Below are positions 1,368 through 21,025 of a stretch of 44,525 nucleotides of DNA, one piece after another (position 1 is the stretch's first letter; each line of letters starts with the position of its first letter). The notes beneath the pieces are model-generated. The model saw only the letters and a program-made list of their open reading frames with translations. It ran no database searches and had not been told where the DNA came from. This stretch comes from Candidatus Gastranaerophilales bacterium. GTDB lineage: Bacteria > Cyanobacteriota > Vampirovibrionia > Gastranaerophilales > Gastranaerophilaceae. The stretch covers positions 1 to 44,525 of the forward strand of contig CANQNX010000006.1 in assembly GCA_947625345.1 (NCBI GenBank). The letters are read 5' to 3'. Both the position numbers and the translations under genes were made by a program.

Positions 1368-3224
<1,857 letters not shown>

Positions 3225-3256
3225 ATTTAATAAGAAAAATATAAAAGATTAAACTT

Positions 3257-3296
3257 AAACCCTAAAATCAAATTAAAATTGGTTTTAGGGTTTTTT
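3257..3296. terminator. Bidirectional terminator between dnaK and the carbonic anhydrase gene
   Basis: AAACCCTAAAATCAA pairs with TTGGTTTTAGGGTTT through one wobble pair, with a seven-base loop, followed on the + strand by T6. It sits between convergent genes. On the minus strand the stem end also gives TTT, so it probably serves both. Confidence 0.8.
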
Positions 3297-14266: not shown

Positions 14267-14794
14267 TTAATTTAAATTTATTCTTAACTGTTCTGATATA
14301 TATGGTGATTCACTTTTATAAATAGCAGAACTTATAATATTAGGATTTGAGCCGGCAACAACATGTATAAATGAATTTTTTAAACTGTTATTGCCGTTTT
14401 CAATCATTTTAATAAGATTATTTTCATTATGTTTAATAATGATATCATTTAAAGATTGAGCAAAATCATCAACATAATTTTGTTCATTAAACAAACACTC
14501 TTCTTTAATATCTTGGGTTAATTCCTGAGCTTTTTCAGCTTCTTTACCGCTAAATATATAACAATCACCCGAACTAAATTCATAAACTTTTGCTTTTGTT
14601 GTTTCAGAGGTAATATCATTAAATATTTTTTTAGTAAATTCCTCTAAAGCAGAACTTTTATCGCAATTACAATCATTATCACCTTTTTCAAATGCACTGT
14701 TTGAATAATTAGCTAACAGTTTAGCAAATTTTTTACTGTTATCACCCGTAACTTTTATTGCTCTTCCAAAGCTAACATTATTATTTATTAACAT
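14267..14794 (-). CDS. Hypothetical protein with an N-terminal NVSFG motif
   Basis: A 175-residue acidic soluble protein that I do not recognise. The start is supported by AAAGGA about six bases upstream. It begins MLINNNVSFGRAIKV, sharing the xVSFG pattern with the protein at 8690-9094. A short cysteine cluster CNCDK lies near residue 42. No signal peptide or membrane helix is evident. The middle is helical and charged. It is divergent from the hydrogenase operon and convergent with the flavoprotein gene. Function unknown; possibly a lineage-specific family. Confidence 0.7.
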   Translation of the reverse strand: MLINNNVSFGRAIKVTGDNSKKFAKLLANYSNSAFEKGDNDCNCDKSSALEEFTKKIFNDITSETTKAKVYEFSSGDCYIFSGKEAEKAQELTQDIKEECLFNEQNYVDDFAQSLNDIIIKHNENNLIKMIENGNNSLKNSFIHVVAGSNPNIISSAIYKSESPYISEQLRINLN

Positions 14795-17351: not shown

Positions 17352-19106
17352 ATGAGCGATAAAAAAACATTATTTATAAACAACGTTGAAGTTGAATATA
17401 CAAATGAAAAGACAGTACTTGAAGTCATCCGCAATAACGGATTTGATGTTCCAACATTTTGCCATCGCCCCGATTTAACACAATTCGGTGCTTGCAGAAT
17501 GTGTATAATCGAGCAGGACGGAAAATGGATTCAAGCCTCCTGCACAATGCCTCCGAAAGAAGGTATAAGAATTGAAACAAATTCTGAAAAGGTGCGCAAA
17601 ATAAGAAAAACTATTCTTGAATTATTACTCGCTAATCATAAAAGAGAATGTTTAACCTGCAATAAATCAGGTAACTGCGAACTTCAAAAGTATGCGGCTG
17701 AATACGGAATTGAAGAAATAAGATTTCCTAAACTTGAAGAAAAAGATTATCTTCCCGTTGACAGTATGAATCCTTCATTAGTACGTGACCCTTCTAAATG
17801 TATACTTTGCGGAGCGTGCGTTAGAGCTTGCTCTGAATTTCAAGGACACAGTGTGTTAGGTTTCGTAAACAGAGGCTCAAATACAAGAGTAGAACCTATG
17901 AACGGAAGATGTTTATCTCAAGTTGACTGTGTATTTTGCGGACAATGTCAGGCAGTTTGCCCGACAGGCGCAATTTCAATAAAATCATCAATAGATGAAG
18001 TTTGGAAACAGATTAATAATCCAGAAAAAAAGGTTGTAGTTCAATTTGCACCGTCAGTAAGGGTTGCATTAGGTGAAGAATTTAACTTGGAACCGGGGGA
18101 AAATACAATCGGCAAAATTTATGCCGCAGCAAGAAGATTAGGTTTTGACTTAATCTTTGATACAAACTTTTCAGCGGATTTAACAATAACCGAAGAAGCA
18201 AACGAATTTGTTGAAAGACTGACAAAAGGCGGAGTTCTTCCGATGTTTACATCTTGTTGTCCTGCTTGGGTAAGATATATAGAAACTCAGCACCCTGAGT
18301 TAATTAAACATTTATCAAGCTGTAAATCACCTCAAGGAATGATGTCGCCGGTTATGAAAGAATTTTTACCGAAATACTATGAAGGTTATACAAAAGAAAA
18401 TATAGTTGTTGTATCCGTTATGCCTTGTACGGCTAAAAAGTATGAAGCAATAAGAGAACAGCTTCATGGTGAAACGGACTATGTATTAACCACACAAGAA
18501 TTTGCAAAAATGATAAAAGCTGCAGGTATTAATTTTAAAGCTTTAAAAGAAGAACAGGCAAATTCTCCGTTCGGTCAATATTCAGGTGCAGGTACAATCT
18601 TTGGTGCATCAGGCGGTGTAGCAGAGGCTGCAGTCAGAACAGCATACTATTATGTAACAGGTGAAGAACTTTCTAATATAGATGTAACACCTTTAAGAGG
18701 TGTTGATGCAAACTCCAGAACAAAAGATACAATTATTGATATTAAAGGAAAACAAGTAAAAATCAGAGTTGTATCCACATTAAAAGAAGCTGAAAAATCT
18801 TTAAAAGAACTAAAAGAGGGTAAAGCAGATTTTCATATAATGGAGGTTATGGCATGCCCCGGAGGATGTGTAAACGGAGGCGGACAACCAACAAGCTGTT
18901 TAGATGCAACAATTAAAGAAAAACGTGCTAAAGGATTATATGAAGAAGATAAAAATCTTGAATACAGAAAATCACATACAAATCCTGACATTAAAAAGTT
19001 GTACGCTGAATGCTTGGGCGGAAAACCCGGAAGCGAAATAGCACATCATTTATTACATACAACATATATAGACAGATTTACGGGTTCATACAAAGATATA
19101 AAATAA
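17352..19106 (+). CDS. hydA: [FeFe]-hydrogenase catalytic subunit
   Basis: A 584-residue catalytic subunit that reduces protons to hydrogen, or the reverse. From the N-terminus: a plant-type [2Fe-2S] (C37, C48, C51, C64), a His-Cys [4Fe-4S] (H96, C100, C103, C109) and two [4Fe-4S] clusters (C150-C160 and C193-C203). The H-cluster domain has all three signatures: TSCCPAW (about 300-306), MPCTAKKYE, and EVMACPGGCVNGGGQP. These are complete, so the enzyme should be active. The maturation genes hydE, hydF and hydG are not in this window. Gene order C-B-A matches group A3 trimeric hydrogenases. Confidence 0.97.
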   Translation: MSDKKTLFINNVEVEYTNEKTVLEVIRNNGFDVPTFCHRPDLTQFGACRMCIIEQDGKWIQASCTMPPKEGIRIETNSEKVRKIRKTILELLLANHKRECLTCNKSGNCELQKYAAEYGIEEIRFPKLEEKDYLPVDSMNPSLVRDPSKCILCGACVRACSEFQGHSVLGFVNRGSNTRVEPMNGRCLSQVDCVFCGQCQAVCPTGAISIKSSIDEVWKQINNPEKKVVVQFAPSVRVALGEEFNLEPGENTIGKIYAAARRLGFDLIFDTNFSADLTITEEANEFVERLTKGGVLPMFTSCCPAWVRYIETQHPELIKHLSSCKSPQGMMSPVMKEFLPKYYEGYTKENIVVVSVMPCTAKKYEAIREQLHGETDYVLTTQEFAKMIKAAGINFKALKEEQANSPFGQYSGAGTIFGASGGVAEAAVRTAYYYVTGEELSNIDVTPLRGVDANSRTKDTIIDIKGKQVKIRVVSTLKEAEKSLKELKEGKADFHIMEVMACPGGCVNGGGQPTSCLDATIKEKRAKGLYEEDKNLEYRKSHTNPDIKKLYAECLGGKPGSEIAHHLLHTTYIDRFTGSYKDIK

Positions 19107-19128
19107 AATAAATAAAAATAACATAATT

Positions 19129-19176
19129 AAAAGCCTTAAAATTAAACAAAAATGTTTATATTAAGGCTTTAATTTT
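19129..19176 (+). terminator. Terminator of the hydCBA operon
   Basis: AAAAGCCTTAA pairs with TTAAGGCTTT, an inner AAACA/TGTTT stem extends it, and AATTTTT follows. The -10 box of the next gene lies only a few bases downstream. Confidence 0.7.
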
Positions 19177-19181
19177 TAATA

Positions 19182-19187
19182 TATAAT
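19182..19187 (+). promoter_or_regulatory. -10 box giving a candidate leaderless transcript
   Basis: A perfect TATAAT ends six bases before the ATG at 19194. No ribosome binding site precedes that ATG, so the mRNA probably starts at or next to the A of the start codon. No good -35 is visible; it overlaps the hydA terminator. Confidence 0.45.
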
Positions 19188-19193
19188 TAAATT

Positions 19194-19493
19194 ATGATAT
19201 TAAAAGAATTTTCAAAATATTTACAAAATAATAAAGATAAAAACTCGGTAAACTTATTAAATGAATGGCTAAAAGAAAGATTAAATAAACCTTCATTAAA
19301 TAAAGTAGACATAATATTAAAGACAGAACTTTATTTTGCAAAAAATAATAACGGAAAAACTCTTATAATAGCAAAAAGTGATACGGGAAGAACTTTATTA
19401 AATGCTTTATATAATTTTTCATTGAGTTTTGAACAATATAAACTGTCAAAATTTTTACATGATAAAAAAACAAACGATTTTAAACAAGATTAA
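19194..19493 (+). CDS. Small hypothetical protein beside the candidate origin
   Basis: A 99-residue lysine- and asparagine-rich protein, predicted helical, that I do not recognise. No Shine-Dalgarno sequence is present; the TATAAT six bases before ATG suggests a leaderless mRNA. It lies between the hydrogenase terminator and the AT-rich candidate origin. No motif, signal peptide or membrane segment is seen. The ORF could be chance in AT-rich DNA, but it is closed-frame from a plausible promoter and has ordinary codon use. Function unknown. Confidence 0.55.
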   Translation: MILKEFSKYLQNNKDKNSVNLLNEWLKERLNKPSLNKVDIILKTELYFAKNNNGKTLIIAKSDTGRTLLNALYNFSLSFEQYKLSKFLHDKKTNDFKQD

Positions 19494-19909
19494 AAAACAG
19501 ATAGTAAGCATGTTTTCATGCCATTTTTGTATCAAAAATTTACAAATTATTTTAAAAATATATTGTAGAAAACTTGTAGAAAACTAATAAAAAAAATTGT
19601 TCAAAAATTTTTAAAATTATAATAAAGATAAAAAAACAGAAAAATTTATATTTAATTTTGAACAAGTTATAAATATTTTTATATATTTTTTAAACAAATT
19701 TTGAACAATTTTAAAAATCAATATTTATTTATGTTTATAACAGTTTTCTACAAGTTTTTTAAAAACCTATTACTACTATTAAATTATTTAATATAAAAAT
19801 ATAAAAAGTAGTAAAAAAATAAATATATATTTAAAAACAAAAAAAAATGAAACTATTTTAATTTTTTCTTATATAATAAAATAGTGCACATAATAAATTG
19901 AGGATAATT
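19494..19909. other. Candidate chromosomal replication origin (oriC) upstream of dnaN
   Basis: A 416-base gene-free, extremely AT-rich stretch. It contains six 9-mers of the form TTTTNNACA. Three are on the minus strand in the left part: TTTTCTACA at 19564-19572 and 19575-19583 (a perfect 11-base tandem), and TTTTGAACA at 19598-19606. Three are on the plus strand to the right: TTTTGAACA at 19656-19664 and 19699-19707, and TTTTCTACA at 19744-19752. TTTTCTACA is one base from the cyanobacterial DnaA box TTTTCCACA as I recall it. The boxes face each other around an A/T core that could unwind. An 8-base inverted repeat TTACTACT/AGTAGTAA lies at 19770-19777 and 19807-19814. The dnaN -10 box TATAAT is at 19872-19877. 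dnaA is not in the window, and flanking genes do not switch strand here, so this is a candidate only. Confidence 0.55.
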
Positions 19910-21025
19910 ATGCTTTTTACAATTGACAGAGATTCTTTATTAAATAAATTAAGAGTAGTTGAAAAAGTTACTTCGCAAAGAGGAAACGTACAACCGGTAT
20001 TAGCAAATGTTTTATTCGATGTTAAAGATAATATCTTAAATTTAAGTGCAACCGATTTGGAAATATCAGTGAAAGCCAATGCTGCAGTAGCGGTAAAAAA
20101 GGAAGGAAAAATAACACTTCCCGCAAAAAAATTAGTTGAAATTGCATCAAAACTTCCTGATAAACCCGTTGAATTTTCACTTAATGAAGATACTAACATA
20201 GTAAGTGTATCTTGCGGTAATTCAAAGTTTGAGATAATAGGTATATCCGCATCGGAATTTCCAAAGACGGAAGAAGAAATAGAAGGCGGAAGTGAAATAG
20301 AGATAGAACTTGAACCTTTTATAAAATCAATAAAAAATACGGTTTATGCGGCAGCTAATTATGAAAACAGAAATGTAATATCCGGAGTATTTTGTCAAAT
20401 AAAAGGCAATAATATAGAAATGGCTGCAACAGACGGAAACAGACTTACAAGAATAGTGGAAAAGATAAACAATAAAGATGATAAAACCGCAAAACTTGTT
20501 ATTCCTTCAAAAACATTAAATGAATTTTTAAGAATATGTTTCTTTTTACCTGATGAAAAAGTAATTTTAATTGCAAATAATTCTAAATTAACGTTGAAAA
20601 CAATGAGTTTTTCAATAAATTCAAGATTAATAGAAGGAGAATATCCTCCTTATCAGCAGTTAATACCTAAAACAACTGCAAATAAAGCATTAATAGACAG
20701 ACATGAATTGATAGATGCTTTAGACAGAGTATCAATAATGGTAAATGACAGAACAAGTATAGTAAAATTTGTATTTGGCGAAAACAAATTAATTCTGAAA
20801 GCCGAAACACCAAATTCAGGTAATTCTGAAGATGTGATAGATTGTAAGTATGAAGGTGAAGATTTATCAATAGCTTTTAATTATAAATATGTTTTGGATT
20901 CGATAAAAACAATGGAAGCAAAGGAAGTAAAAGTAGGATTAAACGGAAGTTTATCGGCAACATTGTTCAAACCTGAAAGCGAAGAAGAATATATTTGTTT
21001 GATAATGCCTATTCAAATAAGGTAG
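19910..21025 (+). CDS. dnaN: DNA polymerase III beta subunit (sliding clamp)
   Basis: A 371-residue clamp protein that encircles DNA and tethers polymerase III. It starts with LFTIDRDSLLNKLRVVEKV and shows the three-domain clamp pattern, with VLANVLFDVKDNILNLSATDLE in domain I, RNVISGVFCQI and AATDGNRLTR in domain II, and a C-terminus ending LIMPIQIR, the usual partner-binding end. I take the ATG at 19910, with GAGG six bases upstream; an earlier in-frame TTG at 19898 overlaps that site and is rejected. thrB starts five bases after the stop, so the two share a transcript. Confidence 0.97.
   Translation: MLFTIDRDSLLNKLRVVEKVTSQRGNVQPVLANVLFDVKDNILNLSATDLEISVKANAAVAVKKEGKITLPAKKLVEIASKLPDKPVEFSLNEDTNIVSVSCGNSKFEIIGISASEFPKTEEEIEGGSEIEIELEPFIKSIKNTVYAAANYENRNVISGVFCQIKGNNIEMAATDGNRLTRIVEKINNKDDKTAKLVIPSKTLNEFLRICFFLPDEKVILIANNSKLTLKTMSFSINSRLIEGEYPPYQQLIPKTTANKALIDRHELIDALDRVSIMVNDRTSIVKFVFGENKLILKAETPNSGNSEDVIDCKYEGEDLSIAFNYKYVLDSIKTMEAKEVKVGLNGSLSATLFKPESEEEYICLIMPIQIR

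Follow-up and report, generated by a model that had tools for sequence, protein, structure and literature searches.

Where on its chromosome does Candidatus Gastranaerophilales bacterium start to replicate its DNA? The question is raised by a gap of 416 bp (positions 19494-19909) on contig G000:C6, which was analysed over its whole length of 44.5 kb (the window) and belongs to a genome of 1.6 Mb in 108 contigs. The gap, with a G+C content of 13%, is flanked by an ORF of 99 aa and by dnaN, and it had been put forward as a candidate replication origin. The clustering of the DnaA boxes, the skew minima of relatives and an architecture shared upstream of dnaN all support this proposal. We conclude, with a probability of about 0.94, that the element extending from about 19427 to 19890 (Table 1) is oriC, the DnaA-dependent chromosomal origin of this bacterium.

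Table 1. Features of the putative origin and of its flanks, in window coordinates
Feature	Coordinates	Strand	Basis
Uncharacterised 99-aa gene adjoining the origin	19194..19493	+	Homologues beside the origin genus-wide and in several families of the order
Far DnaA-box-like site TTTTGAACA in the 3' end of the 99-aa ORF	19427..19435	+	Precedes the tandem by 137 bp
Intrinsic terminator GCATGTTTTCATGC with a T run behind it	19508..19521	+	Sole terminator-like site found; shuffles expect 0.0
Conserved TTTTTGTATCAAAAATTTACA block beside the terminator	19524..19544		TTTTTGTATNAAAA kept in 26/29 genus sequences
DnaA box TTTTCTACA, first of the tandem with an 11-bp period	19564..19572	-	Tandem in 26/29 genus sequences
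DnaA box TTTTCTACA, second of the tandem	19575..19583	-	Conservation of the tandem in the genus
DnaA-box-like TTTTGAACA	19598..19606	-	Relatives often have a box 22-23 bp from the tandem
A+T core separating the facing arrays	19607..19655		Sequence
DnaA-box-like TTTTGAACA	19656..19664	+	Pattern match
DnaA-box-like TTTTAAACA, absent from the original prediction	19688..19696	+	Pattern match
DnaA-box-like TTTTGAACA, 45 bp ahead of the last box	19699..19707	+	Spacing of 42-45 bp recurs in the order and class
Last DnaA box TTTTCTACA, anchor of the DnaA-trio	19744..19752	+	Pattern match, conservation in the genus
DnaA-trio, top strand TATTACTACTATTA	19768..19781	-	3'-AAT GAT GAT AAT-5' on the minus strand, 19770-19781
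Very A+T-rich stretch past the trio, proposed DNA unwinding element	19782..19890		Sequence
dnaN, DNA polymerase III beta clamp	19910..21025	+	Pfam PF00712, PF02767 and PF02768 above cut-off

The identity of dnaN, on which the original prediction relied, was borne out by its three Pfam domains, all above cut-off. A Pfam search with the product of the 99-aa gene returned no match. Homologues of this gene are also found near the origin in other families of the order (L035, L036, L043, L044 and L048, with 34-46% identity), and its product is a possible origin-linked candidate. GCATGNTTNCATG, which is part of the terminator behind the gene, is present in 22 of the 29 genus sequences; this terminator would stop transcription of the 99-aa gene ahead of the origin and would thereby shield the latter. 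An Rfam scan of the window detected one tRNA and nothing else. Elsewhere in the window, a minus-strand ORF of 175 aa (14267-14794) had no Pfam match.

Six DnaA-box-like 9-mers had been reported in the gap, and each was recovered at its place and in its orientation. Their division into two facing arrays also held, but the count of three in each was too low: a seventh site lies at 19688 on the plus strand, and two more plus-strand sites, at 19427 and 19478, stand just outside the gap. The perfect 11-base tandem is present (TTGTAGAAAAC twice at 19563-19584), as is the nearly pure A/T core between the arrays, and the inverted match described as 12 bases long exists with a length of 13 (CTTGTAGAAAACT at 19573-19585 against AGTTTTCTACAAG at 19742-19754). 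The pattern TTTTNNACA was observed 7 times in the gap for a mean of 0.87 in dinucleotide shuffles, none of the 5000 reaching 7. For TTTTCTACA and TTTTGAACA, observed 3 times each, the means were 0.01 and 0.03, respectively, and none of the 5000 shuffles reached 3. When 416-bp windows were slid along the 44.5 kb, no more than 3 matches were counted anywhere away from the gap region despite the other AT-rich gaps, which settles for the window the concern that such 9-mers might be common in this kind of DNA. Genome-wide, TTTTCTACA is not enriched (38 occurrences in 1.6 Mb, compare with 97 for its reversed control pattern), and the clustering is thus local. The gap therefore has what a DnaA-dependent oriC is expected to have, boxes far above chance that are unmatched elsewhere in the window.

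The canonical DnaA box of the E. coli type, TTWTNCACA, varies between lineages, and it does not occur in the gap. The boxes of the gap are TTTTCTACA, TTTTGAACA and TTTTAAACA, and the cyanobacterial box TTTTCCACA is not among them. They had been described as one base away from the cyanobacterial box; the difference falls exactly on position 6, and it is systematic throughout the class (see below).

Two features were absent from the original list of sites, the far box and the DnaA-trio. In 22 of the 24 genus loci showing both the tandem and AGTTTTGAACA, the latter is located 134-138 bp from the former (about 136 bp), and the spacing is 125 and 122 bp in L024 and L032, respectively. We considered that the far box at 19427 could be mere coding sequence, and rejected this idea: the spacing persists in loci (for example L017 and L028) where the ORF ends earlier or was not found whole alongside, meaning that the far box is preserved as DNA and not as code alone.

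The DnaA-trio follows the last box, with 15 bp between the end of this box (19752) and the TATTA of the trio. The pattern TATTA(C/T)TA(C/T)T was found in 25 of the 29 genus sequences; the spacer between box and trio, as measured with this kind of pattern, is 12-14 bp in the genus, and it is 11-17 bp in the order. In the basal unwinding system, the trio consensus is 3'-GAT-5' and the spacer peaks at 10-13 bp with a maximum of 16 bp (PMC8287927). As in that system, at least three trios with a central A stand here beside a DnaA box at a spacer of at most 16 bp, but the 15-bp spacer falls near the upper limit of the published values, and this counts against the oriC reading. The succession of box, spacer, 3'-AAT GAT GAT AAT-5' trios and adjacent A+T-rich DNA is that of Bacillus subtilis; what differs here is a spacer of mostly 12-15 bp, diverged boxes, an activity that is predicted, and the lack in the genus of a clear G+C cluster, in the place of which some order relatives have CTCCC or CTGCT. 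The A+T-rich DNA past the trio, whose opening is likewise predicted, contains TATATAATA, a −10-like box of dnaN conserved in 28 of the 29 genus sequences. An A+T-rich unwinding element next to the boxes is expected of a DnaA-dependent oriC, and the 13% G+C of the 416 bp agrees with this.

From this layout we infer that DnaA would bind, through its domain IV, both facing arrays of TTTTN(T/A)ACA boxes, and that a DnaA filament would be guided from the last box (19744) onto the minus-strand trio. The A+T-rich stretch would then open toward dnaN, the helicase would be loaded, probably with DciA, and replication would depart bidirectionally.

Alignment with the regions upstream of dnaN in relatives, which had been suggested as a check, showed the same architecture. 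Within the order, facing arrays and a trio precede dnaN in six families (f1, f2, f3, f4, f6 and f7), and tandems with an 11-bp period occur too; box arrays are present elsewhere in the class (f8, f9, f10 and f13). The boxes of f12 are not readable with confidence. The families f11 and f14 showed no such layout ahead of dnaN, which counts against the oriC reading. Within the genus, the element is missing directly upstream of dnaN in three sequences (L005, L025 and L029), and two of these three genomes (G009 and G014) carry it elsewhere. On the long contigs G018:C1, G021:C1 and G045:C1 (258, 238 and 560 kb, respectively), the element is the densest box cluster. In addition, outgroup classes of the phylum have the same layout upstream of dnaN with the canonical boxes TTTTCCACA or TTATCCACA (L229, L231, L234 and L237), several of them with the same trio; the element and the dnaN-linked oriC of cyanobacteria are therefore most likely homologous.

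We then looked at strand composition. Because the host genome is split into 108 contigs, its own skew is readable over no more than 44.5 kb, and the long contigs of relatives were used in place of a closed host chromosome. On G045:C1 (560 kb read), the cumulative GC-skew minimum, at 262,798, falls inside the candidate (262,715-263,114). The raw minima of G018:C1 (258 kb) and G014:C2 are at 127,487 and 56,082 for elements at 126,420-126,820 and about 56,300-56,700, respectively, so that the minimum of all three relatives is within the element or 0.2-0.7 kb off. Two raw values count against the oriC reading: on G021:C1 the minimum (100,072) is about 12.5 kb from the element (112,580-112,981), and in the window it is at 12.4 kb. 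Over the 44.5 kb of the window the raw skew is misleading, since gene orientation dominates and misplaces the minimum, and it was replaced by the third-codon-position skew, which is freed of the gene-strand effect, together with the long contigs. With this measure the switch of the window is at 17.9 kb with a likelihood range of 17,462-20,896 that covers the gap (skew of −0.157 to the left of it and +0.069 to the right), and the switch of G021:C1 is at 110,709, about 2 kb from the element. A strand-composition switch is thus found at or near the element by both routes, the minima of three relatives and the third-position range of the window.

The position of dnaA was also examined. It is on another contig in the host genome and 49-57 kb from the element in G021 and G018, where it lies across the element from dnaN, each gene being transcribed away from the element. 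In cyanobacteria, oriC is linked to dnaN and dnaA is unlinked (PMC4674748, PMC7198777), and in S. elongatus the skew shifts near dnaN (PMC7198777). The location found here, upstream of dnaN and away from dnaA, is of this type. The cyanobacterial oriC (Synechococcus elongatus, Anabaena, Cyanothece), with its TTTTCCACA boxes near dnaN, further shares with the element the facing arrays and the trio past the last box (L237 and L234), and differs by a C at box position 6 instead of T/A, by helix 5 of DnaA (KDHTT there, RKHTT here), and by the other flank, occupied here by the 99-aa gene. The host DnaA (L001) has its ATPase and helix-turn-helix domains above the Pfam cut-offs. An origin at dnaA itself was considered and rejected: the gene starts 14 bp past an aspS-like ORF and has dciA as its downstream neighbour, and most relatives in the genus have no cluster there. 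In four close relatives (L054 at 3048-3267, L055, L056 and L057), but not in the window's genome, TTTTCTACA-like boxes of one orientation form a small cluster just downstream of dnaA; this cluster is secondary and may serve to titrate DnaA or in regulation. The G002 bin contains another, distant pair of dnaA and dnaN (G002:C9:10054-12877; 39% and 29% identity), which is probably contamination.

The change at box position 6 was compared with the DnaA sequences. Every one of the 29 outgroup genomes read has Asp at residue 433 (E. coli numbering), helix 5 being KDHTT or RDHTT. In the Gastranaerophilales DnaA read, helix 5 is RKHTT (KKHTT in one) and residue 433 is Lys; in other members of the class it is mostly Lys or Arg, with Gln in G058 and G103, Thr in f12 and Gly in f11, and Asp433 was found in no genome read of the class. 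The f11 DnaA (L300, L302 and L304, from G061, G067 and G079) has GRGNS as recognition helix, compare with RDHTT, and may use very different sites. We counted the sixth base of the TTWTNNACA boxes upstream of dnaN: the outgroups with Asp gave C89 A3 T3, the class outside the order C7 T46 G4 A27, the order T83 A32 G4 C2, and the genus T123 A57 G1 C1. The Fisher test between Asp outgroups and class outside the order gave p of about 1e-34, a value that counts sites and not events and ignores shared ancestry, and that is therefore not readable as so many independent observations. What emerges looks like a class-wide switch in initiator/origin specificity, correlational and mostly one ancestral event. 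The change at position 6 and the replacement of D433 by Lys probably belong together. The odds are about even for the fuller statement that the initiator of the class (Vampirovibrionia) lost the near-universal Asp433 and that the box moved along with it (D with C6, K with T6/A6, Q with A6, R with G6/A6). A comparable case is that of the Epsilonproteobacterial origins (H. pylori, TCATTCACN), where a lineage-specific box shift also goes with altered recognition-helix residues; in that case the shift has been linked to box position 5 and to residues 435, 438 and 439, with Asp433 retained (PMC5043019), whereas the changes seen here affect position 6 and residue 433.

Could the sites be something other than an origin? 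Since the array stands immediately upstream of dnaN, with the conserved TATATAATA between the trio and the gene, they might be operators of the dnaN promoter, for DnaA or another regulator, the origin being elsewhere. Natural separations make this very improbable: in G009 the element and dnaN are on separate contigs, and in G014 (G014:C2:50259-56286, L320) about 6 kb of genes part an intact element from dnaN. There, the third-codon-position switch (56,071, range 54,889-59,608) stays with the element, as does the raw minimum, and the start of dnaN (50,207) is outside the range; the origin signal thus tracks the element and not the gene. A DnaA-trio at a fixed spacing would also be unexpected for an operator, although the sites could regulate dnaN in addition to their role in the origin. 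Slightly less credible still is the view that the sites serve another DNA-binding protein and resemble DnaA boxes by the chance of AT-rich DNA. It draws on the non-canonical base at position 6 and on the predicted nature of DnaA binding, and it runs against the outgroups that have canonical boxes in the same layout, which makes the sites homologues of known boxes altered at one position, and against the recognition helix of DnaA, which is altered in the same lineages.

The oriC reading being retained, it is quite possible, if somewhat short of an even chance, that the box change has a cause other than residue 433, the boxes having drifted to T/A under AT bias or followed another residue of DnaA. 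One ancestral event accounts for most of the correlation, the genomes are AT-rich, and the contact of D433 has been placed at box position 7, which adjoins the changed position 6 (PMC8235120, the only paper with an explicit position in the literature searched for this base contact). AT bias alone is nevertheless insufficient: f8 members with 42-46% G+C upstream of dnaN use TTTTCTACA or TTATCTACA, that is T6, whereas the AT-rich outgroup L229 (22% G+C), which has D433, keeps TTATCCACA, that is C6. Moreover, other residues go with other bases in the few genomes read, Gln with TTATCAACA and Arg with TTATTGACA and TTTTGAACA.

In the freely accessible papers searched, we found no description of a Gastranaerophilales origin and no mention of TTTTCTACA as a DnaA box. 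The new part is one of specificity, namely a changed box combined with a lost Asp433. Origin finders based on TTWTNCACA or TTTTCCACA would rank the element poorly; since these standard patterns score poorly, box, trio and far box together make origins callable throughout the class, fragmented metagenome genomes included, with possible uses in contig orientation and in growth estimates from coverage. As both the sites and the recognition residue differ class-wide from those of other bacteria, these lineages offer a natural test of initiator/origin co-evolution, and a few purified domains and oligonucleotides would suffice for a direct test of how initiator specificity evolves. If the link with residue 433 is true, the class holds a natural series of switches in specificity, with the base at box position 6 dictated by one residue, and the origins of neighbouring lineages may be mutually incompatible.
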